This document shows positions 6,428 through 31,070 of a DNA stretch of 64,000 nt, one piece after another. The stretch is from Isoetes taiwanensis. Its lineage: Eukaryota > Streptophyta > Lycopodiopsida > Isoetales > Isoetaceae. The translations under genes were made by a program, and so were the position numbers. Position 1 is the first letter of the stretch; each line of letters begins with the position of its first letter. The stretch is taken from assembly GCA_021234155.1 (NCBI GenBank), contig JAJEKV010000417.1, forward strand, positions 124,001 through 188,000. The letters are read 5' to 3'. Below the pieces are notes generated by a model. It was not told the origin of the DNA, did not search any database, and saw only the letters and a list, made by a program, of their open reading frames with translations.

Positions 6428-6513
6428 CGGCGTTGTACCATCGCCGAAGTCAAGAAGATGGCCATTGATCCGCGAAGGGAGAGTATCGAGACGGATGCGT
6501 GCGCCTCAAGGAG

Positions 6514-6616: not shown

Positions 6617-6644
6617 AAATCTCGAATTTTGGGAATTTTTCTCG

Positions 6645-7420: not shown

Positions 7421-7636
7421 ATGCACGATTTCTGTTTCACATATCCCTATGGGATTGCAGTATTTTTGGGCGGAATCGTGGGCTATTTATTGAAAGGAAG
7501 CATTCCTTCTCTAGCAAGCGGAGTCATATCCGGATCTTTGTTGCTCTTTTGCGGAAATCGGAGCCTTAAAGCCTACCAAAAATGCTGCAATTCTTTCTCC
7601 TCTCTTTTTCTTGAAACTGGCAAGTTTCGAGTTTGA
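7421..7636 (+). pseudogene. Captured 5' exon of a TMEM14/FAX fatty-acid exporter
   Basis: A 71-codon frame starting MHDFCFTYPYGIAVFLGGIV and continuing GYLLKGSIPSLASG, SLKAYQK. This is the conserved start of the plant TMEM14/FAX5-FAX6 family, small membrane proteins of about 110-120 residues that move fatty acids across plastid or ER membranes. The first two of the usual four membrane helices are present with their Gly-rich faces; the rest is missing. The frame ends in a stop soon after LETGKF. Because it lies just inside a Helitron 5' end and lacks the second half, I read it as a captured fragment, not a working gene. Confidence 0.82.
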
Positions 7637-9402: not shown

Positions 9403-10015
9403 GTGGGTACGTGAGAAAACCAGAATTCCTTCTCTCTCCAGCAGACAATAACACAATACTCAATCCACAGAAAGAGCTACCAGTTAAGAAGATCTTGAAG
9501 GTATGCTTTATATTTCCTCCTATAGAAGTTGCCAAACACCAAAATCTGTACCACCTGAAAAACTGCAGGTAAAAGTTTATATGGGACTTGGATGGCAGGA
9601 GAAATTCAGCAAGAGACACTTTGACACATTTTCTCCACCAGATTTCTATACTAGAGTGAGGAACTCATTCTATGGTTGTACGTTATGTCTAATAAATTTG
9701 AACCTCTACTGATGATATTGCATAAGTTCAGTTGGCATTGGGGAGTGCCCGTGAGACCAAGTTATGAAGAAAACAGATGCAATTGAAGATCAATGGATTC
9801 CCCATCGGCATAAAGAATTTGAGTTCCCCGGCGGTTCCTGAAATTCTTTGTTCTTGGATTGAAGTTCATGAATATGACATGTCGACAAGGATGATTTTGC
9901 AAGCCAAGTGGCTCTTCCTGTTTCAGAATTAAAAACCGAGGATTGAAACGTCACATTATGTGATCAAAGAGGGGATGAGCTAACAGGAGTCAGATTACTC
10001 TTGAAATTTCAGTTT
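9403..10015 (+). pseudogene. Captured phospholipase C exons (end of Y domain and C2 domain)
   Basis: Three exon-like blocks match the C-terminal end of plant phosphoinositide-specific PLC. Block 1 (9403-9502) reads CGYVRKPEFLLSP...KELPVKKILK, the linker after the Y catalytic domain. A short intron (GT at 9503, CTGCAG before 9570) follows. Block 2 (9570-9656) reads VKVYMGLGWQEKF...HFDTFSPPDFYTR, the start of C2. Block 3 (about 9736-10010) includes KKTDAIEDQWIP, EFEFP, KDDFASQVALPVSELK and GVRLLLKF, the end of C2, with stops and frame changes. PLC splits PIP2 into IP3 and diacylglycerol, but the catalytic X and Y domains are absent. Retained introns show capture from genomic DNA, as Helitrons do. 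Confidence 0.8.
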
Positions 10016-10638
10016 GTATAACTTGCCAACTAGGATTTTGTAAAATTGGCGATTGTACTATGGCTCTTTTATGTACATAAGAATACACATAAATAAAGGG
10101 CATAAAACGGTATTGCTTATTGATCTTCAAGCTGGACTTAGGACAACAAATGCAATGCAAAAATTGAACAACACAAGGGTGTTGAGTGGAGAGAGCATCT
10201 GATACACAGTAATAGCCATGCAAAAATTGAACAACAAATGCAATGCAAAAATTGAAAACCACAAGGGTGTTTAGTGGAAGAGCATCGATACCACGGTAAA
10301 GATTTGATGTAAAGATTTGCAACAAGCAAAAATCCAAAGCAAAGATTTGATACAATTATCTAAAGATGGTTGAGTGAAACAAGAGCAGATGTCTAAATAG
10401 AAAAAGAATAGAAGTCCAAGTGCGATTGTTCTAAAAAAAATACAATGCAAAACCATTTTAAATCACCCCAATATTCAAAGCCTTCTTCAATCCTTTTAAA
10501 AAAACCTAAAAAGATCCTTTAAAACCTTAATTGCACAAGAAGGCATTAAATTTCAAACCAAGAAGAGTCAGAAAAGGGAATTTGAAGCAGATCTCAAGAA
10601 AGAAATAATGCCCAGCAACGCTGGGCACTTTTACTAGT

Positions 10639-12213
10639 AATTAATAATTTCTTTAATTAAATATAAAATATTTTAATTAATTAAATAAAAAAAATATAAA
10701 CCTTTCTCTTCTCGACTAGTGAGTCGAGAATTGGAAAGTGGATCCCCTTTTACACCAGGAGGAGCAAGTCCAAGGGGCCGCAAGGCCTCGGTCTGCAAAG
10801 TAGCCTCTCCCGCAATCCGATCCCCGAAGAGTAGCCATGTTCTTTGTTTCTGGCCGCTCAGCACCATAACACAACATTCGAATGTTTATGAAATCGTGGC
10901 TGTTCTTTTTCGGCCATGGCTCTAATCCTCCCTTAGAATCCTCCATAACAAATCCTTTGCAATTCTCCATCGAGAGAATGCCAATTCTTTCTCATGGGCG
11001 GTGGATTCTGCTGCTGCAATTGAAGTGTTGTATGCTTCCTAATATCCAAATCTCTCCATCATTACCTCTTGCGAGGGGTTTTGCAATGCAGCCCGGCAGT
11101 CAGTATTATAAGTTCTTCTAAAAGCTTTTGGCGTTGTATCAAGATCTTGGAAAATCGTTGTAACTGGAAGAAAGGTGATTCCGAAGTAAATTGGGCGAAA
11201 AAAGCCGAATTGGGAGCGTCTATAAGCCGGATCTTCTTCCCCTTCATCTCCTTCAAGAACAATAGAGTCACCTCGACATCTTTTGTTGTTTTCACCTTCC
11301 ACGGTCGCTCTCACGTATTTTCAGCCATAGCCAAAGCATAAATGGCCGCCATAGACTTAAGTGGCGAATGTTTAAGCTCCAACAACGGTCGAGGCGGTTT
11401 GCCAACAGATCCGACTCGCCTCGACTCCGCTCAGTAAATCATGCTCAGATCTCCGCATCCGCCACGATCTTGACCATCTCGGTTAACACATGGTGCGGGA
11501 TTCTAATAACGAGAAGAAGATTGCCGGAAGCAAATAAGATTGGGGCGAAATGAAGGCGTGGTGGAGGCGGATCGAGCGGGGGCATATCGTGGGAGTGCGA
11601 GGGCGGATCAGGCGAGCTTTTTTCTCAAGCTTGAAGAACCGCTTAGTCCGGCGGTATTTCTAACTCTGCGGGCCCAAGAACACGCTTTAATCGCATTTTT
11701 CTAGCTTTAATCCGACATTTTTCTAGCTTCTAGATTGGCGGGCATGCTCGAGGCCGGCGATCATTCTCTTTCGGGCATGCTCTAAATAATTCCTTTCGTA
11801 TTCGATCTCCACATTTTTCTGATCTTCCTTTCACATTTTTCAACCGGACTCAGATCGCCACGGTCGGTCGGGCGGTTTTGCCGCCGGATCTTACGCGAAC
11901 GTAAAGCAGATGAAAGGAAATGGTTCTGGATAGCACATCTCCGGCTTTCATGCCATAGCCGGGATCTTGAGACTTCGCCGACCCACGATTTTGTAAGTGT
12001 ACCAAATTTCTTCTTCTAAAAGGTGCGTGCAAATCTCCCCTTTTCAATTTCAAATTTTTGAAAATTCCGCCCTTTTCAATTTCAAATTTTGAACTTAAGA
12101 GGTGGGGAAAAAAAAGCCAAATCTTGAGAGAAAAAAGCGAGAATAATAGTGTGTAAAAAAAAAAAAAAAAAAATACTGGATATAGATATATACGGTTATT
12201 TTTCTAAGGTTAA
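10639..12213. other. Spacer between two Helitrons, no recognised gene
   Basis: AT-rich at the left, then mixed. A perfect palindrome TTCTCGACT-AG-T-GAGTCGAGAA-like block lies at 10709-10730 and matches the stem motif of the fold-back element at 16466. A minus-strand frame at 11062-11295 reads KTTKDVEVTLLFLKEMKGKK; it may be an exon but I recognise no family. Positions 11640-11850 hold short direct repeats around CTAGCTTTAATCCGACATTT. A run of about 22 A lies near 12151. Confidence 0.5.
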
Positions 12214-15200
12214 CTAGTAAATTGCCCCTTTGTTGGTGGGCTTTAGATGTAATTGTTCAACTTTTGTGATCATTCCATGTTATTGTTCACAAACAATCGG
12301 TTAGTAATGTGTTACCAAGTGTTTGAGGAGCCCAAGTAAATTTATCGGATGAATTATGTTAAATCGGCAATAATTTGGCAATTAGGATCCTCAAATAAGC
12401 ATTTAACGGGATCCATTTTTCACCAAGCATTAGGAAGGCGGGAGTCAAAAAGGGGACAAAAAATAGTGGTGCATATGAAGGTGGAAGCTAATTAATAAGG
12501 GCAAGGGACGGTGAGGCAAGCTCGTGGCGTGCCATAAACAAAGTTGATATTAAAGTTATTGTTGTGTGCGTATATAAAGTGAGATACTCTGTGATATTAT
12601 AGGTTATTATTTTAAAAGTAATAGTGCCCAGCCTTGCTGGGGATTAGTTGCTAGCAAGTTCCATGGGCATAGTACACCATACAAACATTTTGGCCAGAAA
12701 AAAAAAAAAAAAAAAAAAAACAAACAAACAAAAAGAAAAGTGGCACATGGCGATGCAAAGTGACGAATCAAAGGGTCCTTACTTCATTACAAAGGAGCCA
12801 TCATATTAGGGTTTCAGCTCTATATTTATCGTAGTGGTAAGAGTATATCTAGGTATTGTACTAATGCCATGTTATGTTAAATGTAGATATGTGATCTTGA
12901 GATTTCAGGAGCAATTAGAGCAAAAGCAATTTTCCAGATTTTAAATGCAAGAAAGGAAACAATCTACAAATGTGAAGTTGAAATGAAATGAACCGAGAAT
13001 GAAATGAAAAGTCTACTATTTGAAAACCTGCAGAACAGAGAGCAGATCTTAGATCAACAGGTTTTTCCCACACAGTACTCCAAGTTCGCGGTGTTCCTAA
13101 AGGTTTATCATGAGATCAAGGATGGTTGTTAAAGTATTAGGGTAATCTCGTTCTTTGGTCCTTTTTTAAAATGGAGGAGAGGCAAAGGAATAAAATGAAA
13201 TGAAATGCGAAATTGGAATCCTGAGAATAGGTTTACAGAGAATCTAGAAATGGTGGCTTTTTCATCTTGTTAGATCCTTCATCACCAACAAGATGGGATA
13301 GTCAATAAGTATTTACAATTAAGGCTTTCTTTTTCTCTTGCGAGCTGCGGTAGCCAAAATTGTGGAAGCCACGAACCGCGCTTCTTACTTCCATATCCTT
13401 CGCACCTTTATCGCGAGAGATTTGCGATGGAAAAAAGGGCACTATTCATGCTTGCTAGAATCAAAAGGTGAAGAACACAGGCAGTTACAAAAATAAGCGA
13501 AAAATAAATCATGGCAACGAAATGCAATTCCATTCATGCAGTCGTTACAATGGCATTCAAATCGAAGCCATGTCTAATAATATCCAGATGTAGCAAAATC
13601 CCCTTGTCGAGATTCACAATACACGCATCAGAACCATAATCCCAAGAGCATGCACGAAGGTGACATCCTATTTTAGCTCCTGCTTGCAAAACCACCACCT
13701 TGATTATTATTATTTGAAAAAAGAAGCAAAGTTACTACAATTTAAATATGCAAAGAACGAAAAAAAAGGTTGCCATAGCAATTCACCATAAAAATCTTTG
13801 GCAACACTCGGCTCAAAAGGCTTTGACAACAGATATGTATAAAGTGGACTACACCAAGGACATTTCGTTTGTCCCACTCTCTTTTGGTAAACATGCGCGA
13901 GTTTATTTGTCCACTTATGACAAATAGTTTCTTTAATTACCTACAATGAATACATCAAAAATTTAGCACTTGAATCTCTAAAACATCATGCCTTGATGCT
14001 ATTTATTTGTAGGACATGTAAGGATGATAGCAAGTAAAAGAATGGTGCAGACCACCATTTTACTTGCACAAATAAATGACTAATAATGATGAATAATAAC
14101 TTTCTAGCAAATAGAAAAGCTAGCATAATGTTGCAAATGTACACAAACAAATTTGAATTACCTAAAAGAGTCTTCAAATGCAGATAACTAAGAATGAGAC
14201 TTTATAGCATTAATTTGAAATATCACATTGCTTCCTATGACATCAATTCTAACTTGGCATCACGCAATAGACACATAGACTTTAAAACTGCAAAAATGCG
14301 GTTTTAAAAATGCGACCTTTAAAGATGGGACCTCCCTCGATATGCGGGGTTGCACGATCCGCCTAAGAATTTCTCAAGCCCAAAGGAAGTCTTGCTTACC
14401 CATTGATCCGGGCTTGTAGTAATCACGAGCCCTTCATTGCTCTGCAAATCCCATGAGCACCATTTCAAACACAAAGCGAGTGTATGGGTGCGCCCAATAG
14501 TCGTAAGTCCCTGTTTGGTGGAAACACCTCGGTTCGAAACCATGGTAGTGCGGTTTCTTGCGATGATCGGACCGACTTTCGAAAATTTCGGTGCAATTGC
14601 CCACTTTGCTCCAAGCATTGCATAACGCCGTTTATTATTTCCGCATACACCAGCCCGACTTGGAACTATGAATCCTCTGTATACGGATCCATTAATCCCA
14701 AAGGGATCAAAGCCGTAGTCCCGATCAATCTGCTTTGCATGCATTTGTGTTACAACATCTTTGGAACATCGAGCAAAAGGTTTGTGGTCGCCATTGCAAA
14801 AGGTTTTGTGGTCGCCAGAAATTTTGCGGAAGAATGTAGAAAAAAGCAGAGGATCTACATCAAAAAGCATCAAGTCTACCACGTTTGGCCTCAAGTTTTA
14901 AAAATAATGACACCATAGCTTAGCATAACTTGGATAGGCTGTTCAACCTACTCCAATGATCTCCTGCAGTGAAAGAATGTGACAAACATTGGACAGACTC
15001 CCAAAGTGTCCAAAAGCTAACGTAGCATACGTGTCGCCCGGTAAACATTGTTGGTTCATTGTTGGTTTTGATGAAATGGCAAAGCTTCCTAGAGCCTTTT
15101 GCAATGGAGGATAATGCACACCTAAAAACAAACATTGTGTAGCAAGTCTTAAATGATTTCCACGGTTATGCACCCAATGAGACCGATTGATGCTAAATCT

Positions 15201-15793
15201 ACTCACGAAATAGTGATTTTTGTCATTGTCTGAGAGATCATTACGGTTGATTGTTATCTTTGGAATATGTTGTGTAGCCGATGTGCAGCCATTTGGTTAC
15301 GCGAGAAACAAAACAACATTGCAACGGCCCCGATGCCTATCTGCCTTCACTTAGCCTCCAACAACAACTCTGTTGCCCTACGAAAACAAATCATCTTCGA
15401 CCAATTAAAATGGTGCGGGCTGGCCATCCATCGCTCGGATATGGGTGCCGCTTGGCTATGGAGGCGGCGGGCCAAGACTCGAACCCTAATACCTCCAAAC
15501 CCACCTAGCGTGCCATAGCTTCGCCATTGGCGTCTTAGCCAAGAAGATAGCCATAGCCAAGAGCTTGGCCGACACCACCATCAGCTCCTCCTTGCAAAAC
15601 TTATCATAGAAGAGAGGGATTTGGGCCGGAAACTTTGTGTGTTGGACGGGGAGTCTTTTTTTTTTTTTTTTTTTTTTAAATCGCTAGAACGAAACTAAAA
15701 GGGCTATCTCGACCATCCAATTTTCTAATCAAATCTTAACCGTCAGATCTAGGGCGTGGTCCATTACTTGCACTAAAACATTATAATATAAGA
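12214..15793 (-). mobile_element. Helitron carrying an Lhca3 fragment, copy 1
   Basis: Minus-strand Helitron of 3.6 kb. CTAG is at 12214-12217 and the 3' hairpin follows at about 12222-12240 (GCCCAC-CGTTG-GTGGGC type; clearer in copy 2). The 5' end is TCTTATATTATAATGTTTTA at 15793. A second, internal hairpin (TGCCCAGC-CTT-GCTGGG) sits near 12628. A copy of the whole element, split by a Copia element, lies at 34465-46779. It carries part of an Lhca3 gene (14325-14735) and other exon-like pieces I cannot name, such as a minus-strand block near 13560-13700 reading IGCHLRACSWDYGSD. There is no Rep/helicase. A T21 run lies near 15657. Confidence 0.85.
14325..14735 (-). pseudogene. Captured Lhca3-type photosystem I antenna fragment, copy 1
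   Basis: Minus-strand pieces in two or three frames match the first half to two thirds of Lhca3: DYGFDPFG, then YAEIINGxxA (first membrane helix with its chlorophyll-binding region), [17 protein letters not shown] and a FGLEKFLGGS...NPAYRG end. Lhca3 is a chlorophyll a/b protein of the photosystem I antenna, normally about 270 residues; here roughly 140 are covered and there is no start, transit peptide or last helix. Frame changes interrupt it. It lies in the same orientation as its Helitron, consistent with capture. The second copy (36566-36985) preserves other stretches better. Confidence 0.8.
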
Positions 15794-16039
15794 TAAGATG
15801 GAAAAAAATAGCGGGGTGCGTACCAAATTTTAAATTTCTAGGATACCATTAATTGGGCTATAATTTTATTAGTGTCGCCCATATAAATATTTGAATTTTT
15901 GTCGCAAATTGATAGCATGGTTGTGTGCTTGTATAATCATATTTTACACCTTATGTTGACCTTAGAGGTGCTAGGCATATAATTCTTATGTCTAAGATAA
16001 AAAGTTGGCTTATACAAGATAATAGTATACTTTAAATTA

Positions 16040-16465
16040 TTTCAAAGGAAATGATGCATGGCTATACTATATATTGCTTTGCATGGACCATGTGCTAGTA
16101 TGCTATACTATACTATATAACTATATATTGCTTTGTATGGACCTTGTGCTAGTATGCTAATGTGTGCATTATGAAATTGTAGTATAAAGTACTAAAGTCT
16201 GCTAATTAAGGTGTGCTAGTTAATAACCATTTAGGACATTGTCCTAAATCTATGTACCCCCCCTCTTTTTTTAAATTTTAAATTAGTATGATATAGTTTA
16301 TTGTTTTTAGCACACATTAGTATTTAGCACACATTAGTATGTAACAATTGTTTTTATACTAGCACACATTAGTATTAGCACACATTGCACAGCACATTAG
16401 TATTTAGCACACATTAGTATGTAACAATTGTTTTATACTAGCACACATTAGTATTAGCACACATT
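16040..16465. repeat. AT-rich tandem repeats
   Basis: Two small tandem arrays. The first (about 16062-16160) repeats TATATATTGCTTTG(C/T)ATGGACC and GTGCTAGTATGCTA twice. The second (16308-16465) is a roughly 90-bp unit, twice, itself built of TAGCACACATTAGTA words and TAACAATTGTTTTATAC. It abuts the fold-back element that starts at 16466. No coding potential. Confidence 0.8.
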
Positions 16466-17086
16466 GTTCTTAGGGCCATTTTTGGAAAATACGAGCTTTG
16501 AGAACCTTTTTCGACTTCATGAAGTCGAGAAAGGTTAAAAGCCGAAAAATGGAGTTTTTAGGGGTCATAAGGCCTTTCGACATTCAGCGAAGTCGAGAAA
16601 GGAGGCTCAAAGAGAAAAACGCAGTTTTTAGGGGTCATAGGGCCTTTCTCGACTCGCGAGTCGAGAAAGACAGCTCAAAGCGAAAAACGCAGGTTTTAGG
16701 GGTCGGAAGGCTGCCCTCTGACCCCTAAAACCTGCGTTTTTCGCTTTGAGCTATGTTTCTCAACTCGCAAGTCGAGAAAGGCCTTCTGACCCCTAAAACA
16801 CATTTTTGCTTTTGAATCGCCTTTTTCGACTTCGGCGAAGTCGAGAAAGGCGCCCTATGACCCCTAAAACCGCATTTTTTAAACTTTGAGCCGCCTTTCT
16901 CGAAGCGAAGTCGAAAGGCCCTATCACCCCTAAGAGCAAGGTTTTTGCTTTGAGCCTCCTTTCTCGACTTCAGCGAGTCGAAAGGCCCTATGACCCCTAA
17001 AGCTTGTGTTTTTCTTTTGAGCAACCTTTTTCGACTGAAGTCGAAAGGCTTCTCAGCCCTGTATTTTCCAAAATGGCCCTAAGAAC
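16466..17086. mobile_element. Fold-back element: long inverted repeat of palindromic units
   Basis: The ends are inverted copies: GTTCTTAGGGCCATTTTTGG at the left and CCAAAATGGCCCTAAGAAC at the right. The arms meet near 16720, where AAAACGCAGGTTTTAGGGGTC pairs with its complement across about 14 bp. Each arm is a tandem array of units of about 80 bp, each with its own small palindrome (best: CTTTCTCGACTCGCGAGTCG and onward near 16653) plus the word TAGGGGTC and a GAAAAACGC word. Left and right arms differ in length (about 255 and 360 bp). The layout resembles Foldback-type DNA elements; a TA target duplication is possible but not distinguishable from the repeat. No gene inside. Confidence 0.75.
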
Positions 17087-18071
17087 GGTGTTTTATTTTA
17101 TTTTTTGCATGTAGCATCACTTGACTAACTTGATTTTGTCTTTTGCGGTCCTTATCTCAACCGGATAGTACATGCTTGGGAGCAATGAAAAAGACCAGTT
17201 CATTGAAGAAAGATGCCGAGAAGAGGGTGGTGACATCGGTTGGACATAGAAGCACGTGGCCTATGAAGGAACTCCTCATACAAATTTCTATCGTCCTGTA
17301 AAGTTGCTCTCCGTGACTTGGGCAGAGCTCCGCCGCCGTTTGCGATAGGGTGGTTCATGTGTGAAGAGGGTGTAATCATTGTGACAATACGACCACTATG
17401 GTCTCTTCACCCAGTGTAATGTATATTGTAATGAGCCCATTTATAAATATAAGGTATCTCAAAACTAGTGTTTTTTGGTGATTAAGTAAACAATTTGCTT
17501 AATTTTTGTTGGAATTTATGATCTCTTGTCTACCCACCTAAGAAAATAGAGAAAAAAGTCTTGGTAAAGGAATTCACCCTCACGCGCGAAAAAACTCTTA
17601 TTTTGAATGACAAATAAGCCCCAAAACAGGGGACTGGAAGGACTCGATATCCAAGAAAACCGGGAGAAAGCTTGGATGCACAGTTTCAGACAAAAATTCG
17701 AATTAAGGACAGTTTTCGGGTCGGGTTGCTCCTTTTTGTGTAAAATAACAGGGTTCCGAAAAATAGTGGGAATGGAATGAGTCCCACTTTAATTAAATAC
17801 GACTTAAGGGGGAAAACCCTAATTTTTGGATGATCTAGAATTTACTTAGATTGGGTGACTCTGATCTATTAAAGGGTGCAATTGCGAGTTTGAAGACTAC
17901 TTCTAGGGTTTGCGCATGCTAGAATTGACTACTGAACCTATTGCAACAATTTGGAGATCATTTGGGTATGGGATGGTGAAGAAAAGTTGCGAGGTCTCAC
18001 ACGTTGCGCCCAGACCGATAATGAGAAGTTCATTTTCTGTCCTGGCTCGACGTGTGAGACATGGGCTCTAA
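17087..18071. other. Spacer with no recognised gene
   Basis: No open frame of note. It holds a copy of the 25-bp word GTCCCACTTTAATTAAATAC+GACTT at 17781-17805, which also stands upstream of the TATA box at 6577-6586, and the first small palindrome at 17994-18060. The 5 bp TCTAA at 18067-18071 is the left target-site copy of the LTR element that follows. Confidence 0.5.
17994..18060. repeat. Nested palindrome, copy 1
   Basis: Outer arms GTCTCACACGT and ACGTGTGAGAC enclose an inner imperfect palindrome ATGAGAAGTTCAT. The loop side contains GTTGCGCCCAGACC and TTTTCTGTCCTGGC. Three related copies lie at 24849-24909, 26499-26559 and 26693-26756. Function unknown; it could be a tiny MITE or a protein-binding or RNA hairpin site. 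Confidence 0.7.
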
Positions 18072-20650
18072 TGTAATGGTCCTGGGAAGTTAAGGACCCG
18101 TATTGTACAAGTATTTGTACATAATCCACATAAGCAAACTATAAAAAGGAAAAATTATAGAAGAGGGCTTTTGGTGGTACGTGAGGAGTTTTTGCAAGAG
18201 AGGAGCTCCATAAGGGATTTGAGTTGCAGAGGAGCCGGAGGAGGCTATCTGGAGGCAAGAGCTGGCATAGAACGGCATCAATCTATTCATTCAGGTGGGG
18301 TTTGAATTCTAATTTTTAGGATTCAATTGAAGGTTGCATATGCTATGCATCTGTACGTGTCTTTGTACAGGTCTGGTAAGGGCCAGACTTGGATCTAATC
18401 AGATGGGTTTTGTGATGGCCCTTAAAGGGAGATATGTTGTAGCCATGATTAGAGATGTCTATGCTTGGTGAGATAATAAGCTTGTGAACTGGAGATACAG
18501 AGGTAAACTGCCATGCCTTCCTTGTTAAGATTGGATTAAGAGTTTACAGCTTGAAACTATGGAGATTGGAATTGGATGCTACGTGATAGAATCCGCTTCG
18601 GAGGTTCAGGAATTGCTACAGCAGTTGGACAGAGAGATGATTCTACCATGCAGGGCTAAGTTCATAATACCATGCAGAGCCAAGTTCGTAATCAGAAGGA
18701 TCTTATTGGATTTCTCAAGGATCTTGTTGCAGCCGTCTTATTTGGAGCCATCGGGCTGGATTGGAAATCATCAGCAAATCATGCCGAAATTGGCCGGAAA
18801 GGACGGATTTGGGCCTTACAAGGGCCGATTTGCCCTGGACACAGTGAATCAAAAGGAAACAAGGGCTTCTAGAACTCGCTGAATTGGGCCCGAACAGCCG
18901 AAAACCGCTTCTATAGAGCAATTGGGAAGTAAAAGCATCGATTTGCCTTGAAAAGGCTTGATTCTGGGAAATCGATGTCTTCTGAAGCTGTTACAGTGCC
19001 GAACTTGCATGTTTTTGTTTCTGTCATGGTCTTGTGTGGTTGTCTTAAATGTGATTTGGGAATGTTGCTAACAAATTGTTGATCTTATGGTAAATAAACA
19101 TACAAGTAGTCTCAAGGGGAAGCATGGAAGTGTCAAGGAGCTCGGATTTAGCATTTGCTCTCTAGAGAGAAAGCCCATACAAGTTGCACGAGAATTGGTA
19201 AAACACAAAGGATGGAAAAATATGTAAGAATTGTATTGCTTGGATAACTATTTAACTAAGGAAAGATTATAATTTCATGTAAATAAATCTAATGATTGGA
19301 GTAAAATATATTTCTTGGCTCTTAGAGATGGGGCTTGCACGGGGCTGCTTTTGACGGAAGTTCCAGGCGATTCAGGTCGAGGAACCCCATGGATTTTAAG
19401 CGGGAAAAGCATAAGTTGGAGGCGCCGGTCGAATGCATAAAATAATTCATTAGCTAAGAAGTGGAATTTTAAATATTAAAACTTTGAAACCATACCTAAG
19501 GGAACTTAAGTAAATAATATGGTGAAGCGAGTCCTGCATCGGCCTTACAGGGGGGGTTGAGCACGCTACATCAACATTTGAGTTGTCATTATGGTTTTCA
19601 TCGTCGATCCAGCTACTTCGGCATAGTTAGGTTGTATGGGCAACCTCGACAAGGGCTAAGAGTGTGATCTAGGCACATTTATAAATTCTCTAATGAACAC
19701 ACATGTTATGGTTTTTGCATTGTTCCACTGTTGTTCTTGTGATATTATGTTATGTACTTGGAACCTCCGGGGTCGGACTTCCAGGTTCGGTGGCCTGGGT
19801 AGCTCCGGCATTCTCATGTCATCTGTGCTCTTTGTATCTATGCTCTGTGACACCGGGCGTGGCCTCCTCACGGGCGTAGCTTCCCGGTGAGGTTGTACGT
19901 CAACTCTTGTGAACTCCATGGTAAGAGGTCCTCCAGCGCCAGACGTGGGCTGGGAAGGGTATGCGCATACGAGGTTCACCCCACCAACTCCGCCAACGGG
20001 GCTCGGAATGTGAGCTGGCCGGGCATTTCTCTGCTAACAGGGCCTGCATGTAGGCTGGCTGAGCTTCCCATTGTCCCGGAGCTTTGTTATGTTGTTTTGG
20101 TACTTTGGCTTTGTGTTCTTTGCTCTTGACTCTTATGATATTTCTTTTGTTGTCATTGTCTAGCACTGCACCATAGTCTCTTGTATATTTGGAATTGTTC
20201 ATGTGTATGTTATCCAAGATGCCGAGTGTTTCCATGTATGCAGCAGCAGCTATGGGGTCCCCACTTAGTCACGAGGACTAACCCCAGTGAGTGCATGTGC
20301 AGTGAACCCGCAAGGTGGCGGTCAAGTTGATGGTGGCAATGTGGCCGGGAATCGTGCTTGAGTTCTAGAGCTAGCAGTTTCTGTTGATTCGCTCAGTGTT
20401 GTTGTATATGGATATTGATAACACATCTTAAATATTTACGCTATTGATTTGTCCAGTTAGAACTTGGAATATATTAGGCTTGTGAATATGTTGAATGCAT
20501 GAACCAGGGTTGTTTGTTGAGCCTAAACTGTGGATTTAATTTTCAAAGGAAGATTTGATTCTTCACCTAAATTCACCTGTGCATAAATCTAGTTGTAAGT
20601 CAGACAAGATCCCGAGTTGCCCGGAGGGTCAACTCGGCAGGCTCGTCACA
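18072..20650 (+). repeat. Left LTR of the TR-GAG element
   Basis: Begins TGTAATGGTCCTGGGAAG and ends GGCAGGCTCGTCACA. It is 2.58 kb, long for a plant LTR. The right LTR (22137-24722) matches it over its whole length. Short frames in it appear in both copies and have no recognisable content. Confidence 0.88.
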
Positions 20651-20756
20651 ATTGGTATCAGAGCGTGTTGGATCTTAGTGGGAGTTGAGAATGGTTCATG
20701 CTCTTGAAGTGGGTTGTTAATGTTTCCATTGTCTATGTGCAGACTAGTAAGAGATC

Positions 20757-22052
20757 ATGGATGCTGGTGGTGCTAGTAGTGCAGGGGGAGATGGAGCCGA
20801 TGGAGCTCCAGATGTAACTAGTATCCTGCAAGCTATTCAGCAAGCCTTGCAGCAGAGTGCATCGCAGCAGAAGAGTGAGGCTGAGAAAGCCATTGATAAG
20901 GTGTTAAAGGACACCAAAAGAGAAGTGTTCACAGGTGAGAACACAACAGGGGATGATGCTGATGCCTGGCTCCGTGGGGTAGAGTTTTATTTTGATCTCA
21001 TCAAAGCACAGGATTCTGTGAAGGCTTTGCTTGCTCAGGCAATGTTAGGAGGCTTTGCAAGAGTTTGGTGGGAGACATGCCTGATTGATCTGGGGAAGAC
21101 TCCAGTACAGGCTACATGGGCTGATTTTAAGACCGCTTTTGAGGGTCATTTCACACCTCCAGGGTATAAGGTTGAGAAGATGAACGAGTTCTTCGATTGT
21201 GTACAGACTGGCACAGTAGCAGATTATAATGAGAGGTTTAGAAGGTTGCAGCCTCATTGTCCTGCTATGGATAAAGTCAAGTTGTGTTCTAGATTTGTAA
21301 AGGGCCTTCATGTGGATATCAAGAGTACGATGTCAGGAGTTGCTTATAAGGACCTTGAGGAGGTTGTTCGGATTGCCAAAAGCCGAGACGATTTTGGAGA
21401 GAAAGCTGCATTAGAAACCCAAAGAAAAAGACAAGCACCTTCCTCTTGGCCGCTTGAGAGCTCGTATGGCGAAGACCCATCATTTAGAGGGGAGCCATCT
21501 GCTAGTCCATCTGTGGAGGTTCAGAGCAACAATATGAGGAACCGGGCAAGTAGTAGCCAGATTGAAGGTAGTAAGTTACCCCACGGCTCACTGATGAGGA
21601 GAGGCAATGCTTTGAAGAGGGGCGTTGTTTCCGTTTGTAGGGCAACAGCCACACAAGAAACAATTGCCCAAAGATTTGGCAAGATTGAGGGACGTAGCTC
21701 CTCAATGCCCATGGATTCACAACAGCTAGATAGAAGTGCCATGGGACCAGAGCGATCCAATCGATATCCAAATGCTGGTAGAGGCAGAGGCCGTGGAGAA
21801 CCTCGATCGAATCAAAGGGAGCGTCAGCCTGAGGAAAGATGGGGTACAGATGATAGAATCATTGAGCGAAGGCAGCCGAGTGGTGAAGCTAGAGCTGCCG
21901 CAGTGATGGATCTTCCGCAACACCAAATGGTTGTGTACGCCGCCGAAGCTCCACGTGATAGAGCTCAAGGAGCTTCTGTAGTGCAGATTCCAGGTAAGCA
22001 TGATGGTTTTGCTTTTGTTTCATTGTCCGTAGCAGTTGTGTACCTTGCTTGA
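20757..22052 (+). CDS. Gag protein of the TR-GAG element, 431 residues
   Basis: Open frame from ATG about 95 nt after the primer-binding site. Residues about 50-210 fit the Retrotrans_gag domain of Ty3/Gypsy elements: DADAWLRGVEFYFDLIKAQD, ARVWWE, TWADFKTAFEGHFTPPG, DYNERFRRL and FVKGLH. The C-terminal part is basic and Arg-Gly-rich (GRGRGRGEPRSNQR); I see no CCHC zinc knuckle. The protein would assemble particles that package RNA, with the enzymes supplied by another element. The N-terminus is Gly/Ala-rich. The frame looks whole. Confidence 0.8.
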   Translation: MDAGGASSAGGDGADGAPDVTSILQAIQQALQQSASQQKSEAEKAIDKVLKDTKREVFTGENTTGDDADAWLRGVEFYFDLIKAQDSVKALLAQAMLGGFARVWWETCLIDLGKTPVQATWADFKTAFEGHFTPPGYKVEKMNEFFDCVQTGTVADYNERFRRLQPHCPAMDKVKLCSRFVKGLHVDIKSTMSGVAYKDLEEVVRIAKSRDDFGEKAALETQRKRQAPSSWPLESSYGEDPSFRGEPSASPSVEVQSNNMRNRASSSQIEGSKLPHGSLMRRGNALKRGVVSVCRATATQETIAQRFGKIEGRSSSMPMDSQQLDRSAMGPERSNRYPNAGRGRGRGEPRSNQRERQPEERWGTDDRIIERRQPSGEARAAAVMDLPQHQMVVYAAEAPRDRAQGASVVQIPGKHDGFAFVSLSVAVVYLA

Positions 22053-22136
22053 GATTGTTAGTGCAAATTGTCAGTAAGCATGACAGCTCCTAGGATCGAC
22101 CCATGAGGACATGGGTTGAATTTTAGAAGGGTAGAT

Positions 22137-24722
22137 TGTAATGGTCCTGGGAAGTTAAGGACCCGTATTGTACAAGTATTTGTACATAATCCACATAAGC
22201 AAACTATAAAAAGGAAAAATTATAGAAGAGGGCTTTTGGTGGTACGTGAGGAGTTTTTGCAAGAGAGGAGCTCCATAAGGGATTTGAGTTGCAGAGGAGC
22301 CGGAGGAGGCTATCTGGAGGCAAGAGCTGGCATAGAACGGCATCAATCTATTCATTCAGGTGGGGTTTGAATTCTAATTTTTAGGATTCAATTGAAGGTT
22401 GCATATGCTATGCATCTGTACGTGTCTTTGTACAGGTCTGGTAAGGGCCAGACTTGGATCTAATCAGATGGGTTTTGTGATGGCCCTTAAAGGGAGATAT
22501 GTTGTAGCCATGATTAGAGATGTCTATGCTTGGTGAGATAATAAGCTTGTGAACTGGAGATACAGAGGTAAACTGCCATGCCTTCCTTGTTAAGATTGGA
22601 TTAAGAGTTACCTGTAGCGAAACTATGGAGATTGGAATTGGATGCTACGTGATAGAATCCGCTTCGGAGGTTCAGGAATTGCTACATGCCAGCTGGACGA
22701 GAGATGATTCTACCATGCAGGGCTAAGTTCATAATACCATGCAGAGCCAAGTTCGTAATCAGAAGGATCTTATTGGATTTCTCAAGGATCTTGTTGCAGC
22801 CGTCTTATTTGGAGCCATCGGGCTGGATTGGAAATCATCAGCAAATCATGCCGAAATTGGCCGGAAAGGACGGATTTGGGCCTTACAAGGGCCGATTTGC
22901 CCTGGACACAGTGAATCAAAAGGAAACAAGGGCTTCTAGAACTGCCGGAATTGGGCCCTAACAGCCTAAACCGCTTCTATAGAGCCAATTGGGAAGTAAA
23001 AGTATCGATTTGCCTTGAAAAAGGCTTGATTCTCGGGAAATCGATGTCTTCACGAAAAGCATAAAGATCTTAGAACTTGCATGTTTTTGTTTCTGTCATG
23101 GTCTTGTGTGGTTGTCTTAAATGTGATTTGGGAATGTTGCTAACAAATTGTTGATCTTATGGTAAATAAACATACAAGTAGTCTCAAGGGGAAGCATGGA
23201 AGTGTCAAGGAGCTCGGATTTAGCATTTGCTCTCTAGAGAGAAAGCCCATACAAGTTGCACGAGAATTGGTAAAACACAAAGGATGGAAAAATATGTAAG
23301 AATTGTATTGCTTGGATAACTATTTAACTAAGGAAAGATTATAATTTCATGTAAATAAATCTAATGATTGGAGTAAAATATATTTCTTGGCTCTTAGAGA
23401 TGGGGCTTGCCTGGGAGCTGCTTGACGGAAGTTCCAGGCAGTTGCGGTCAGGGAACCCCATGGATTTTTAAGCGGGAAAAGCATAAGTTGGAGGCGCCAG
23501 TCTGAATGCGCAAATAATTCATTAGCTAAGAAGTGGAATTTTAAATATTAAAACTTTGAAACCATACCTAAGGGAACTTAAGTAAATAATATGGTGAAGC
23601 GAGTCCTGCATCGGCCTTACAGGGGGGGTTGAGCACGCTACATCAACATTTGAGTTGTCATTATGGTTTTCATCGTCGATCCAGCTACTTCGGCATAGTT
23701 AGGTTGTATGGGCAACCTCGACAAGGGCTAAGAGTGTGATCTAGGCACATTTATAGTAAATTCTCTAATGAACACACATGTTATGGTTTTTGCATTGTTC
23801 CACTGTTGTTCTTGTGATATTATGTTATGTACTTGGAACCTCCTGGTCGGACTTGTGTTCGGGTGGCACGGGTAGCTCCAGGCATTCTCATGTCATCTGT
23901 GCTCTTTGTATCTATGCTCACGGACACGGGCGCGGCCTCCTCACAGGCGCGTAGCTTTCCGGTGAGGTTGTAACGCCAACTCTTGTGAACTCCATGGTAA
24001 GAGGTCCTCCAGCCGCCGGGCGTGGGCGGGAAGGGTATCATCACGAGGTTCACCCCACCAACTCCGCCAACGGGCTCGGAATGTGAGTGGCCGGGCATTT
24101 CTCGCTAACAAAGGGGCTCGCATGTAGGTCGGGCCGAGCTTCCCATTGTCCGGAGCTTTGTTATGTTGTTTTGGTACTTTGGCTTTGTGTTCTTTGCTCT
24201 TGACTCTTATGATATTTCTTTTGTTGTCATTGTCTAGCACTGCACCATAGTCTCTTGTATATTTGGAATTGTTCATGTGTATGTTATCCAAGATGCCGAG
24301 TGTTTCCATGTATGCAGCAGCAGCTATGGGGTCCCCACTTAGTCACGAGGACTAACCCCACTGAGTGCATGTGCAGTGAACCCGCAAGGTGGCGGTCAAG
24401 TTGATGGTGGCAATGTGGCGGGGAATCGTGCTTGAGTTCTAGAGCTAGCGAGTTTCGTTGATTCGCGGTGTTGTTGTATATGGATATTGATAACACATCT
24501 TAAATATTTACGCTATTGATTTGTCCAGTTAGAACTTGGAATATATTAGGCTTGTGAATATGTTGAATGCATGAACCAGGGTTGTTTGTTGAGCCTAAAC
24601 TGTGGATTTAATTTTCAAAGGAAGATTTGATTCTTCACCTAAATTCACCTGTGCATAAATCTAGTTGTAAGTCAGACAAGATCCCGAGTTGCCCGGAGGG
24701 TCAACTCGGCAGGCTCGTCACA
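22137..24722 (+). repeat. Right LTR of the TR-GAG element
   Basis: Begins TGTAATGGTCCTGGGAAG directly after a purine-rich stretch and ends GGCAGGCTCGTCACA before TCTAA. It aligns end to end with the left LTR. Confidence 0.88.
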
Positions 24723-24848: not shown

Positions 24849-24909
24849 GTTCTCACCGTTCTGACGAAAATGAGAATCTCATTTTCTGTCCTGGCGCGAC
24901 GTGTGAGAC
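24849..24909. repeat. Nested palindrome, copy 2
   Basis: Left arm GTTCTCACCGTT, right arm CGACGTGTGAGAC, with a perfect inner palindrome AAAATGAGA-AT-CTCATTTT at about 24867-24885 and TCTGTCCTGGCGCGACG as in copy 1. It lies 135 bp beyond the 3' end of the CENH3-like gene. Confidence 0.72.
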
Positions 24910-25043: not shown

Positions 25044-26314
25044 TTACAAAATCTCAAGGGCGTTCTCCCTTGATGTGCCTGGCAAGATGCATATCCCCGC
25101 CTCATGAGGGTGACCCTTTTGCATGTACCGTGCAGGCCGGGCCGAATCTTCAAAATGCTACACTATTTTCAGCCTCGCCGCCTCCCCCGTAAGCACAACA
25201 ACATCTTCGGTCCGCCACGCAAGATGCATGTGTGTTGTATTCCTGCATGACTTCGCGGACCAAGCGTTGAAAGGGTGCCCGGGGGATCAAGAGTCCATAA
25301 CTCTTCTGGAAGTGCCCGATTTCTTTGAGGGCTCTCTGCTCCTTCTGCTTGCTCTTGCTGCGCTTCTTCCCTGGCGCTCTGGGAGGTTTGGGCTTTGGTG
25401 GGGGTGGCTTTAGGGTCTGCTTCGGGGGTACTCCACCTTCGACTGCTCTCACCCTGTGCTCCTGATAGTACGCATTGTACGCCTCCCACTTCGCCATATA
25501 GGCGTCGTGCTCCTTGATCCTCTTCTGATAGACCTTGGCCTGGGTCTATCCGTGACGCCTGGATTGGGGTCGGCGGGCTTTAACTCCTATCCCATCGCCG
25601 GGAGCGGTGGGGCTTCCGCCGCCTGTCTGGCTCCTCACCGCTCTGTGCTGCACCTTTGCGGTGCCTCTTGCTAGGGGTACTTCCTCCTCCGCAGGCGGGG
25701 TTTTGGCCGAACTTCGCCCCTGCGTGTTCGGGGGCGTGGTCCTCGTCCGTGGTCGTCGATTGGAAGGCGAGGTGTTTGTCACGATGGCTGGTTGATGGCC
25801 AGGGACTTTGTTAACCGGCTTGCCCACCTTCACAACCTTCCTTTTGCATATGCCTGGCTTTAGCCCTTCCTCTTCTTTGGCCCATTTGGTGGTTTGAATT
25901 AGATCCTCTCGATTCTTAGATCTCTGCTTTCATACTTGTTGATGAGCAGCGAGGTCTACTTCTTCCCCTGCTAAGCGTCGGCTGTGCTGCTCTTCTCTCC
26001 CTCCCTCCTCACGAAGATGGGTCTTTCGGTTTGGAGTTGCTCTTCACATTTTGTTGGCCCGCTCAAATGCGTTCCGTTGCTCTGCTCCTTCCCTCCTCCT
26101 CTGCGATCTCCTCGAGAATTTGATGCATAATGTCCGCCGGTCGTCTTCTATGATCTCCATTATGGTCGCTCCGATCCGATCCGCATCTTCGCTTTCCGAA
26201 GCTGGTTCGCCTTCTTGAAAAGACGTTCTTGAAGGACTCTCGAAAGAGGCCGAACCGGGCGGCTGGAGGATTCGCCGGCGAGGCTTCCTAGCGATCTGTT
26301 TTGTCTTGGGCCAT
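25044..26314 (-). pseudogene. CENH3-like histone H3 variant with a very long N-terminal tail, broken
   Basis: Minus-strand reading of about 420 codons. It starts at ATG 26314 with a MA.TKQIARKPRRR sequence, the H3 tail tip (MARTKQTARK) after a one-base shift next to the ATG. One frame then runs from about 26310 to 25150, interrupted by three stops (26044-26046, 25930-25932, 25546-25548). It contains a basic, Pro/Lys-rich tail with a coil-like YQKRIKEHDAYMAKWEAYNA. Then comes the H3 fold: RALKEIGHFQKSYGLLIPRA, PFQRLVREVMQEYN (alpha-N and alpha-1), EAAEAENSVAF, FEDS and, after frame changes, C.VHAK, TL/MRR-like and MHLARHIKGERP (alpha-2, alpha-3). ALKEIRHFQK..LLIP is characteristic of plant CENH3, the centromeric nucleosome histone. 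Usual plant CENH3 tails are well under 100 residues; here the tail exceeds 300. No intron signals are needed, so it may be a retrocopy or a non-standard gene. Confidence 0.72.
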
Positions 26315-26345
26315 GTTCGACCGGTTATCATCAGAGCTAAGCGCC

Positions 26346-26424
26346 CGAAGATCGCCTTGGCAGACACGAGCAAACTTCTAAGGAAAGAACGCGGAAATGG
26401 GAGGGGGTCTAGGTCTATTTATAT
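26346..26424 (-). promoter_or_regulatory. TATA promoter and leader of the CENH3-like gene
   Basis: TATA box ATATAAATAG (26424-26415), then AAGTTTGCTC (26377-26368) and GGCGATCTTCGGGCGC (26356-26341) before the ATG at 26314. The same boxes precede the unknown gene at 4936-6427 with almost equal spacing. The first nested palindrome upstream begins 75 bp beyond the TATA box. Confidence 0.6.
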
Positions 26425-26692: not shown

Positions 26693-26756
26693 TGTCTCAC
26701 ACGTTGCGCCCAACCCGAAAATGAGAATCTCATTTTACGTCTCCTTCTGTGTGAGA
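26693..26756. repeat. Nested palindrome, copy 4
   Basis: Left arm TGTCTCACACGTTGCGCCCA, identical to copy 1 over 19 bp, then AAAATGAGA-AT-CTCATTTT and right arm TGTGTGAGAC. About 135 bp beyond copy 3. Confidence 0.7.
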
Positions 26757-26948: not shown

Positions 26949-28550
26949 GCTCGATACCACTTTGTGGCGTCCCCTACTGCAGAGATACCGGTGCACTCAC
27001 CGTGATACAAACAGAGTTCTTCCCTCATACCAGCTCCATGCCGATCACTGGGGCCCTCCACATGACACTTCCCAGAACCGTGGCGGGTTCCAGTGGGGAA
27101 GAGTGAAGGGGTCATTTTACCCGCCTCCGGGGGATCTACCTACCTACAAAGCGTAAAAACATACATGTCAAGATATAAGAGCAACACATATATCCACCCC
27201 TAGGGTGGCACATCACATCCGCAATAGACAATGATCAAGACAATGCATAAGGGAAATCCTACCCAAGGCTCGCATTAATGTGGATGGACCGACAAGCCCG
27301 GGTCTCGTGAGTTCATTGCGCATTTAATTCATGGCAATGGATTTGGTGGGCATAAGAACATGGCAATGGGTAGTCCACTCCATCCGCCCCTCTTGTGCAC
27401 ACTTTGCGTAGTAGGTGAAAAGTGTTGGGACTCGATCAGAGCCCACGGATGCATAGCCAAGGGGCTATATCCTCGGGTTACATCTCCCCGCCCGATGGGG
27501 CGGTAGGGATCACTCCCCTCCAGAGATCTACATGCCGACTCAAAGGTGACTAGAGGTCCTTGCCCCGTATTCGACTTGAACTCAATGGAAGGTCATATCC
27601 ACCACCTCACGAGTGTCGAGCCCATGCCTTGCCCACACGCGGTGGCAAGCCATTAGACCTAGTCACAATGATCCCCGGTAGCACTAACACACCATAGGGA
27701 TCGTTCAAGAGTCAGAACACGGACCTTCTTATAAGCCAGTCTGGCCCCTTCACCCACAACCAGGTGTGGCTCTTGTGCACAGGCCGCAACTACAGTGTGC
27801 TAGAGAGGCTACTCTAGGAGCATCAACTACAAAGCCTTAGGTCTCTACCCCCCTTCCCAATACAAGGAGTTCATAGAGATACATCATCCATATACATCAT
27901 AGAGAACTAAAGAACTAGATCTAATCTACATCATAGAGTTAGGTTCTTTAGTTAGAATCTGCTATCTAGAGATCTAGAGGGCTGCTATGGGCAATTTAAG
28001 AGGCTAGACCTACTGATTTGATGACCGAAATAGGGTTAAGACTATTAAATTGCCTAAATACCTGATCCTTGAGTTCCTCCTCCTGACCTGAGCTCGACCA
28101 TCCTGCTGAGATGCTCGAATCAAGGAAAACTAATGATGCAATTCTCTCAGACAGCGTCTGGGAGGCGGTTTTGACCCTTGGGGCAGCCCAAATAGAGTCC
28201 AGGAACCCTAGAAACGAAAATTGGGGGAGTTAGGGTTTCCCTCCCTAAATAGACAAGGGGGTTGGCTAGGGTTTCCAATTATCCCCTTTTGGCATGTGGG
28301 ATAATTGGAAAAAGGGCCCACTTGCCTTTAAGGTCTAGGTGGCCAAATGTGCCCACATGGAAATGTGTGCACCCAAATGTGCTCACATGGAAATGTGTGC
28401 ACATTAATGAATGTGCATATTGGGAAATGTGCACATTAATTACACGTATAGGTATGGCCCACTTGGCATTAAGTGGCCACATGGGAAAATGTGCACTTAA
28501 GTGAATGTGCACATGGTTTAATGTGCACATTAATAAATGCACACTCCTTG
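26949..28550 (-). mobile_element. Gypsy-type LTR piece with primer-binding site
   Basis: On the minus strand an LTR ends GGGGACGCCACA at about 26963, followed after AAG by TGGTATC-GAGC, the initiator-tRNA primer-binding site, at about 26961-26949. The LTR body to the right contains blocks also found in the LTR at 61929-63557, such as CCACTCCATCCGCCCCTC and GGTCTCTACCCCCCTTCCCA. The outer end is not defined; a LINE begins near 28570. No gag or pol is seen on its internal side, where the CENH3-like gene lies instead. It is an incomplete fossil. Confidence 0.55.
28338..28550. repeat. Array of GTGCAC palindromes
   Basis: About ten copies of an AAATGTG(T)GCAC-like word, several extended to AATGTGCACATTAAT, with irregular spacing and CACATGG joints. 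It lies at the promoter-distal end of the LTR piece. TGTGCACA is self-complementary, so the array could bind dimeric factors or be simple repeat drift. Confidence 0.65.
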
Positions 28551-28569
28551 CACGTTGCCCCCTAGGGCT

Positions 28570-31070
28570 ACTAGCCTGGCTATACGTTGGCGTACACGCC
28601 GGTCGGTGGAAGGCGGTAATGCTGCGATTGAGGCAAAGATAAAGATATCGTCCGGGAGCGATATTGTCTAGCCGAACGTCACAAGCACCATGGTATATGG
28701 GAAGATTATTGAAGAAACAGCCCTGAAGATTTTGGAGGGGACTCAAGCAGAAGGGAGGGGACAACAATATGAAAACAATGAGTGAGATAGACGGTATTGG
28801 AACAACGGGATGGGCAACGCCATGGGAAAAGTACCTGGATAAATTGTATAAGACAGGGGCACCTCCAGTACCAATACCAATACTGCAGGATTTGGACAAA
28901 CCATGCTTCAACATGTTAGAGGTAATGATAGCTCTAAACAGGATGGCTAACCATAAAGCACTGGACCTATATGGTCTGACCGTGGAATTGCCGGGTGTGC
29001 CGAGAGGTAAATCACGCCGGACAGGGTCATAGACATTTTTAACGGCATCATACATACAGGGCTTCCAGATAGATGGACATACAATAGAGTCATACCTCTA
29101 CATAAGGCAGAAGCGCATAGATCCGTGGAACTATAGGACGATAATGGTGAGCTCCATTTTCGCAAAATGGTTTGGAAAAGTACTCGATAACAAATTAAAG
29201 AAATGGGCAGAAGAAGGAAACATGAGAGCACAAGGGCAAGCAGGATTCAGGCCAGAACACTCAACCACCGATCACCTGGTGACTCTTCGGATACTAATAG
29301 AACAAAACAAAACACAGGGAAGGAAGATCATCTGTTGCTTTGTAGATTCGAAAAAAATTCATTAAACACGCCCAGGGAGAAGCTATTAAAAAGACTGATA
29401 GACATGCAAGCCCCGATAAATATGGTAGGGTCGATTGCAAGATTATACCATAAGGTATATGCTAAGATGGAACAGGAAGGGGCACCGATAACTGCGGGAC
29501 ACAGCGTAAAAACAGTGGCTGCCCGTTATCCCCAACTCTGTTTGGAATATACATCTAGATGCTTTGCAGGGATACATAGCAGAACAGCAAGGGGATGAAT
29601 ATGCCCCCACACTAGGAGACACGAAGGTGCCAATAATACTATATGCTGACGACCTAAGCATGATGGCCACAAAAAACAAAGGGATGCACTGACTGCTAAG
29701 AATTCTACAAAAATTTGCGGATGAAACAGGTGGACCAGAATCTAGCAAAACCAAGATAGTCATCTTTGGTCATAAGAACGTGCATAAACCCCCGGATATA
29801 AAGAAAAAGACATAGAGGAAGCAACGGAATACATATACCTAGGGTACGATGCACATGGTACAGGGAAATGGGCCAAAGGAGCTGACGCCAGGTTCCAAAC
29901 AGCTATAGGGAGTTACTTCAACATGAAGAATTTTTGCAACAGAAGTAGAATAATTGACTGGGACATCAAATGTTACTTTTATTCAAGGCAATGGTAGGCA
30001 CCGCCGCTTATACGGGCGAAGCATGGGGGCAGCCTACCGCATTTAAAGTGGGAAAAGGGAAGGAATTCTTAGGCAATGGCATGCATGTGAATTCAGGGTA
30101 AGAACAAAAATCGCCATTGACAATCATGATCCTCGAAACAGGGCAAAACCAATGGAAGTGAGAGCATGGAGAGAACCATAAGGTAACCGGGATCGGGATA
30201 ATGCGGGGAGACATTCAAGGAAAACTGTCTAGTATTGCAATTACCGAATCAGCAAAATTACACATCCTCACAGGAAGTGGATGGTTTAAAGATGTGGCAA
30301 TTTGGACCAGAGAGATGGGATTAAATTTGAGTGACCTAATTGAAGAAGGAAGGTGGAATGAGGAATGGGCAGACAGAGCCACATGAACGTGGCTGCAAAG
30401 ACACACAGGTCCCAAGACAGCCTGGCTCATGCAAGTTTTCAATCCAGACCAGCAAATAGGACACCAGATGTATCGGGATAACATACTGGGGAAAAACAGA
30501 AGAGACATCCTGGCTAGATTCAGGATGGGAAGTCATGATCTAAGAATCGAAAAAGACAGGTGGAGAGGGATAGACAAGGAGGACAGGATATGCAGAATAT
30601 GTGACGATGGGAGAATAGAGGATGAGAGCCACATGATTAACGATTGCCCGATCTACGGAGACATCAGAGACAAATACAGAAGTATAAGATGGGGGGAACC
30701 GGTCTACATCATGATGACGATAACAGAATCGCTTTGAGATTTGGCAGACGCGATTCAGAGAGACATAGAGAAGTACACAGTGAAAGAGGGTTCGTAATAT
30801 GATCCGTACAAAACGGGTCATAAAACCCCATACAAATTGTTCAGCTAAAAGCTGATTGATAACGACGCATCATTGCACCCGCCAATGGCCAAGGTAAAGC
30901 GGGATGCCGGGTAATAAAAAAAAAGTCGGCGGCCTAAAAGGCTACATCATAATAAATAAGTGATGTGCTAGTAGCACCCTTTTTTAGGGAGCTCGCCCAT
31001 GCTACACAAGTCCAGGGGCCTCGCGGCACAAGGGACATTAATGTATTCTATTCTATTCTATTCTATTCTA
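28570..31070 (+). mobile_element. LINE (non-LTR retrotransposon), decayed, 5'-truncated
   Basis: Fragments in several plus-strand frames follow the order of a LINE ORF2. Near 28870-28990 there is a DKPCFNMLEVMIALNRM..HKALDLYGLT block like the start of the reverse transcriptase. At 29144-29365 comes IFAKWFGKVLDNKL...QAGFRPEHSTTDHL. At about 29640 the catalytic ILYADDLSMMA (YADD) appears, then EYIYLGYD at about 29830. Near the end (30429-30737) is a zinc-knuckle tail CRICDDGRIEDESHMINDCP (CCHC). Many frame changes and stops are present. The 3' untranslated part ends in five copies of TTCTA (31041-31070), a tail type seen in some LINE clades. No endonuclease domain is seen. Confidence 0.8.

Follow-up and report, generated by a model that had tools for sequence, protein, structure and literature searches.

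A histone H3-fold gene in chromovirus-type Ty3/gypsy retrotransposons of Isoetes taiwanensis

Results

A broken histone H3 gene in a decayed retrotransposon

The window, a stretch of 64,000 nucleotides of the Isoetes taiwanensis genome (assembly GCA_021234155.1, contig JAJEKV010000417.1, positions 124,001 to 188,000), holds a broken histone H3 open reading frame (ORF) amid the remains of a long terminal repeat (LTR) retrotransposon and two later insertions. Its features, in window coordinates, are as follows.

26963 to 28683, minus strand: 5′ LTR of the histone-carrying retrotransposon, start TGTGACGTT, aligned to the LTR of the related copy L041 (start 860, end 2503)
26949 to 26959, minus strand: decayed primer-binding site (PBS) TGGTATCGAGC (TGGTATCAGAGC in relatives), from comparison with relatives
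26694 to 26736, minus strand: palindrome remnant upstream of the histone ORF (in relatives, a 67-base palindrome on both sides of the ORF)
25054 to 26314, minus strand: broken histone H3 ORF (tip at about 26314, tail of about 300 residues, fold at 25054 to 25332), from frame changes, stops, tblastn, DNA copies and Pfam
24865 to 24909, minus strand: palindrome remnant on the downstream side of the histone ORF
18072 to 24722, no strand assigned: later insertion within the histone element, a gag-only LTR element (LTRs 18072 to 20650 and 22137 to 24722)
17806 to 18071, minus strand: histone element continued, 94% identical to L041 4764 to 5029, with a palindrome at 17994 to 18060
6592 to 17805, no strand assigned: second of the two later insertions, 11.2 kb long and bounded by perfect 25-bp terminal inverted repeats
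4884 to 6591, minus strand: histone element continued, ORF2, with a stop-free stretch of 407 residues; similarity to L041 stops at 4884

The window is collinear with L041 in the order LTR, H3 ORF, ORF2, over three stretches separated by the two later insertions, and of the two LTRs only the 5′ one is kept. This LTR probably ends at GCCACA, directly before the PBS, which in relatives is of a type that we take to be that of initiator Met tRNA. In the gag-only element, the LTRs are about 2.58 kb long and agree at 2505 of 2557 aligned bases (98.0%). Its gag-like ORF, at 20757 to 22052, encodes 431 residues, and its target duplication is TCTAA; with about 1.5 kb between the LTRs, the element has no space for pol. 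The 11.2-kb insertion, a putative large DNA transposon, has the terminal inverted repeats AAGTCGTATTTAATTAAAGTGGGAC and carries internal inverted and tandem repeats at 16306 to 17049. Towards the window ends, a pyrimidine-rich segment (1 to 2000) and a purine-rich one (58500 to 60800) are about 66% alike in inverted orientation and of low complexity.

The H3 tip, read from the window sequence, is (P)KTKQIARKPRRR near 26300, and the fold runs through RALKEIGHFQKSYGLLIPRAPFQRLVREVMQEYNT, VHAK and MHLARHIKGERP as far as 25054. Pfam Histone matches the open piece at 25150 to 25497, minus strand (41 bits, E = 2.6e-10); the tip-bearing open piece at 26044 to 26373, minus strand, is without a Pfam match. 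Frame −2 carries both ends, with five stops between the tip and the end. The initial annotation had described an H3-type tip at the ATG and an H3 fold at the other end of a single frame of about 1.2 kb. Tip and fold are both present, on the minus strand, but the ATG sits in a different frame, which reads MAQDKTDR and then stops. Likewise, the frame is not open, although relatives show that tip, tail and fold make up one ancestral ORF.

All 20 long-tailed H3 ORFs compared from other genome sites match the window ORF (tblastn, best E = 2.9e-14). A 1381-base stretch of the window has end-to-end copies elsewhere in the genome that are 73 to 86% identical, and searching the genome's DNA with the window ORF yielded 45 matches at the 40 places scored out of 1751 candidates. 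Aligned globally, the window ORF and L041 differ by 54 frame-changing gaps, a figure obtained at lenient gap costs and set aside. The histone signal in the window is above chance, and the protein cannot be made from this copy.

Architecture of the related elements

The relatives fall into the window's own group (group B) and a sister group (group A). Three group B loci were fetched with flanks (L041, L042 and L043); L042 and L043, each 10 kb, align to L041 at 87% along about 9 kb. L041, which continues in L044, holds, in order, LTR, PBS, palindromes, H3 ORF, palindromes, ORF2, gag with Ty3 capsid and a pol part of reverse transcriptase (RT), RNase H, integrase, SH3 and chromodomain, with a polypurine tract directly upstream of the 3′ LTR. 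In L041 the LTR lies at 860 to 2503, the PBS TGGTATCAGAGC at 2505 and the H3 ORF at 3167 to 4429. L041 and L044 form a two-LTR copy whose LTRs (1644 and 1656 bp, with TGTGACG...GTCACA ends) share 96.1% of 1617 aligned bases (K2P 0.040). In this copy, the one examined end to end, a 5-bp target duplication, CGTGG, stands at both ends; its pol frame is not open over the full length.

Pfam models above cut-off in the elements are Histone (96.2 bits), gag, Ty3 capsid, RT, RNase H, integrase, SH3 and Chromo, the search of the gag-pol region having taken in L041, L044 and the group A locus L011. The Chromo match reaches 39.6 bits in L044 and 35.1 bits in L046 (cut-off 25.1), L046 being the sole group A continuation fetched. 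In L011, the rve model scored 30.3 bits, below its cut-off of 32.6, and the integrase zinc-binding model was above cut-off.

Group A comprises 20 loci (L009 to L028) chosen for long open frames, with an H3 ORF of 411 to 464 residues counted from the first Met. Measured against L010 with pieces longer than 200 bases, 18 of the 20 have an LTR-like stretch upstream in the fetched DNA (absent from L022 and L023), and 17 have a downstream gag-pol region (absent from L009, L013 and L025). The exact PBS TGGTATCAGAGC occurs in 13 of these loci and in all three 10-kb loci of group B. L009 is arranged as LTR, H3 ORF, ORF2, LTR, with no gag-pol between repeat units of about 2.25 kb that are 95.5% identical; it is a putative recombinant or non-autonomous form.

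ORF2, located between the H3 ORF and gag and encoding about 500 residues (L026, 5275 to 6720; L043, 5100 to 6686; window, 4884 to 6591), is homologous between groups A and B by profile comparison (97.9% probability over 431 columns). This suggests a common ancestor having this gene order. ORF2 of both groups is without a match in Pfam or NCBIfam.

Four 67-base palindromes surround the H3 ORF, two per side, in all three flank-fetched group B loci (in L041 at 2712 to 2778, 2913 to 2979, 4576 to 4642 and 4775 to 4841), and they were not found in any of the 20 loci of group A. One 24-base half occurs 1687 times genome-wide. At a guess, these palindromes may act as RNA hairpins or recombination sites.

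It is thus well supported that the window histone is the first gene of a decayed, twice-interrupted Ty3/gypsy LTR retrotransposon of the chromovirus type, whose integrase bears a chromodomain, and that the element encodes an H3-fold protein of about 420 residues. Among the three origins offered by the initial annotation, a histone carried by a mobile element was the right one: LTRs, PBS, gag-pol and target duplication surround the relatives with which the window is collinear.

The H3 protein is under selection

The initial annotation had proposed searching the fold against histone profiles and the genome for an intact paralogue with the same tail. The fold matches Pfam Histone, and among the best 60 of 177 PDB matches, 59 are named H3 types and one a “Histone domain-containing protein”. 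The genome yielded 16 open group B relatives of 409 to 433 residues. All of them begin with MARTKQTARKP, which contains the exact residues 1 to 9 of H3, and they end in the H3 fold, with altered C-termini in L047 and L049. Nine were chosen from rows matching from residue 1, which biases the set toward an intact tip. The earlier suggestion that a tip and a fold at opposite ends reflect growth of the tail within one H3-type gene fits these 16 relatives, in all of which the two stand at opposite ends.

Pairwise comparison of the 16 open copies (NG86, 120 pairs) gave mean dN and dS of 0.000 and 0.866 for the tip, 0.144 and 0.770 for the tail, and 0.038 and 0.710 for the fold (dN/dS 0.05). In group A, dN/dS is 0.04 for the fold and 0.13 for the N-terminal part in subgroup A1 (11 copies), 0.02 and 0.13 in A2 (7 copies), and 0.11 and 0.43 across all 20 copies. 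Being drawn from open copies alone, these ratios are biased toward intact frames; they bear on the lineage and not on each copy. It is well supported that selection maintained an H3-fold protein during multiplication of the elements, whose lineage had acquired an H3-type gene.

Residues R69, R72, R83, C110, H113, R116, T118, D123 and L126, which we take to be important H3-H3′ interface or DNA sites, are conserved in 20 of 20 group A and in 14 to 16 of 16 group B copies. Other H3 sites have changed in group B: R49 to K, R63 to P and K79 to N in all 16 copies, and R129 to H in all 15 copies with a letter there. Basic linker segments are present in the element H3 proteins. The group A fold is near-canonical, with a mean identity of 86.2% to host H3, and stands behind different N-terminal parts. 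The tails of the two groups have no homology in hhalign, and nothing above cut-off was found for the H3 ORF tails in NCBIfam. None of the 20 group A ORFs begins with ARTKQTARK; thus, the tip is not essential in every version of the protein. The ORF of L027 (3765 to 5009) starts with MARTKGTK, close to the H3 tip, a hint that an H3 tip may formerly have stood at the start of this group A element too.

Copy number in the genome

Across both strands of the whole genome, the exact tip MARTKQTARKP occurs 419 times, the window-type fold motif TVHAKRVTLMR 706 times and the canonical-type motif AIHAKRVTIM 1263 times, host genes counted in. Host-type tips (MARTKQTARK followed by codon class WSN) number 25, at least one of which is an element copy, so that element-type H3 motifs exceed host-type tips by more than 10:1. 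Backward-pattern controls gave no matches. The counts take in motifs whatever their LTR context; that context was examined in 20 loci of group A and three of group B.

A Pfam Histone search of the genome, in which the best 150 of 8705 loose candidates were scored, placed all 150 above cut-off. The first 15 resemble host H3 (full-model matches; eight translations read), and 36 of the 150 lie within open frames of at least 400 residues (hand count). A protein search for group B places scored 99 of 16029 loose candidates. By hand count, 42 of these are stop-free from residue 3 or earlier to residue 417 or later, and 35 have a stop within the main match; at several places, the match starts at residue 3 to 13. 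Related copies thus number in the hundreds in this genome, and many of them can still be read and have been shaped by selection. The listed places are scattered across many scaffolds, with no targeting to one region apparent. Pattern searches of IMG/VR gave 8 and 29 matches, none confirmed as a viral relative.

CENH3-type residues in group B

The residues HFQ, LLIP and RVTLM are typical of CENH3, and plant CENH3 starts with MARTK and has a longer loop 1 than canonical H3. The group B fold carries all three motifs, as does Arabidopsis CENH3, and shares the MARTK start with plant CENH3. Loop 1 of group B, compared with reference sequences, is of H3 length without the CENH3-type insertion, and the fold is more similar to host H3 (56.8% identity) than to Arabidopsis CENH3 (51.7%). 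For these two reasons, we do not file group B as CENH3; the CENH3-like label of the initial annotation is apt for the three motifs but not for the loop or the overall identity. A further departure from plant CENH3 is that the group B gene has a tail of about 300 residues, is LTR-borne and is multicopy. FastTree joins the group B fold to Arabidopsis CENH3 at 0.903, with CENH3 as one long branch, and the fold may possibly descend from an old CENH3.

The host CENH3 itself was not identified among the best 150 of 6960 candidates retrieved with the Arabidopsis CENH3 fold; the top 15 are host H3 places, and the rest are known by position alone. A host CENH3 gene at the window locus is ruled out by collinearity with the L041 element and by the in-frame stops.

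Discussion

Known chromoviruses, including lycophyte ones, resemble the elements described here in their LTRs, Met-type PBS, gag, RT, RNase H, integrase with SH3 and Chromo domains, and 5-bp target duplication, according to the available parts of two papers (PMC3350952, PMC2864245). The Isoetes elements differ in that further ORFs lie between PBS and gag, beginning with one for an H3-fold protein; those parts of the two papers show no histone ORF. The portion of PMC9289625 at hand describes orchid Ty3/gypsy elements with an extra ORF containing an AlkB-like RNA demethylase domain, which likewise represents gain of a non-canonical domain as an additional ORF retained across subfamilies, although the orchid product is an enzyme and the one here a histone.

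Histone-encoding DNA viruses are already known, as set out in the available text of PMC9145170. In the accessible sections of PMC9145170 and PMC5423620, a bracovirus H4 with an extended N-terminal tail enters host nucleosomes and alters host expression via that tail. This H4 and other single viral histones share with the element a parasitic genome, one core histone and a longer tail, but the bracovirus case involves a DNA virus, H4 and a shorter extension. Nudivirus Orf1, of 1111 residues, resembles the element protein in its long unrelated N-terminal part before the histone fold; as excerpted from PMC9145170, it differs in that its last 200 residues form an H4-H3-like doublet with 30 to 40% histone identity, in a DNA virus. 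The main text of that review, as available, has no match for “retrotranspos” or “retrovir”, and PMC7264820, which reviews the additional ORFs of plant LTR elements, has none for “histone”. The same is true of the available main text of two Isoetes genome papers, one of them PMC8566536.

We consider it very probable that, overall, an H3-carrying Ty3/gypsy element with a selected protein, presumably acting on chromatin, explains the window. The conservation of dimer and DNA-contact residues, the free group B tip and the chromodomain integrase point to a putative role in chromatin. Using its H3 dimer surface, the element H3 would pair with host H4 and then join nucleosomes or H3-H4 chaperone complexes. 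In group B, the exact H3 residues 1 to 9 at a free N-terminus could serve as a substrate or decoy for host H3K4 and H3K9 enzymes and readers, and the element-specific tail of about 300 residues might connect the histone to element products. The net effect that we favor is that the element would mark or occupy the chromatin of its copies or of its target sites, whereby integration may be guided or H3K9-based silencing blunted. Compared with HP1, two of three cage aromatics have been lost from the element chromodomain and one (W) is kept, which makes direct reading of methylated K9 by the integrase doubtful. The interacting factor of the diverged plant chromodomain type had not been found, according to the available part of PMC3350952, and a direct link from tip to integrase is therefore only a guess. 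The most specific version, in which element-encoded nucleosomes with an authentic H3K4/K9 tip would sit at copies of the element or at its target sites, there directing integration or preventing silencing, is tentative, though a real possibility. If true, it would give a retroelement a histone code arm of its own.

Several other explanations deserve weighing. The element protein could act as a soluble decoy that never enters nucleosomes and instead titrates H3 chaperones, H4 or H3K9 methyltransferases, weakening silencing. Histone mimicry by viral proteins is known, which counts for this proposal, as do the exact tip held at dN 0, the altered R63 and R129 of group B and the long charged tail, which could hinder normal nucleosome packing. 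Yet the fold too is under strong selection (dN/dS 0.05), and several DNA-contact and H3-H3′ residues that a decoy would scarcely require are retained; we regard a pure decoy as rather doubtful. A packaging role, in which the H3-fold protein would coat element RNA or cDNA in a virus-like particle or pre-integration complex in the manner of a Gag accessory, would suit the basic linker segments and the position of the gene as the first ORF past the PBS, before ORF2 and gag, in both groups. It is nonetheless unlikely: the elements already retain a Gag with a capsid domain, and packaging leaves the kept H3-specific surface and the modifiable tip unexplained.

A functionless passenger, an H3 piece once captured and since multiplied by chance with the element, would accord with the dead window copy and with the 35 of 99 scored group B places that contain a stop, but 42 of the 99 are near full length without one, and the H3 gene has been retained in two diverged groups. 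Such a passenger would hardly show dN/dS of about 0.05 in the fold and 0 in the tip at dS of about 0.7 to 0.9, and separate captures from host genes are contradicted by the common element-specific tails, which makes this account very improbable. The main reading of the initial annotation, a long-tailed host CENH3 gene that lies among repeats by chance, draws on the CENH3-type motifs and the FastTree grouping. It is extremely improbable given relatives ringed by LTRs, PBS, gag-pol and target duplication, the collinearity of the window with them, 706 exact fold motifs rather than one host gene, and the absent loop 1 insertion.

Among the matches listed in the open PMC literature, we found no retrotransposon encoding a core histone. 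In practical terms, element copies swamp searches for H3 and CENH3 in this genome, and such searches call for caution. The elements of I. taiwanensis offer a natural system for testing the use of histones by genomic parasites against H3K9-based silencing.
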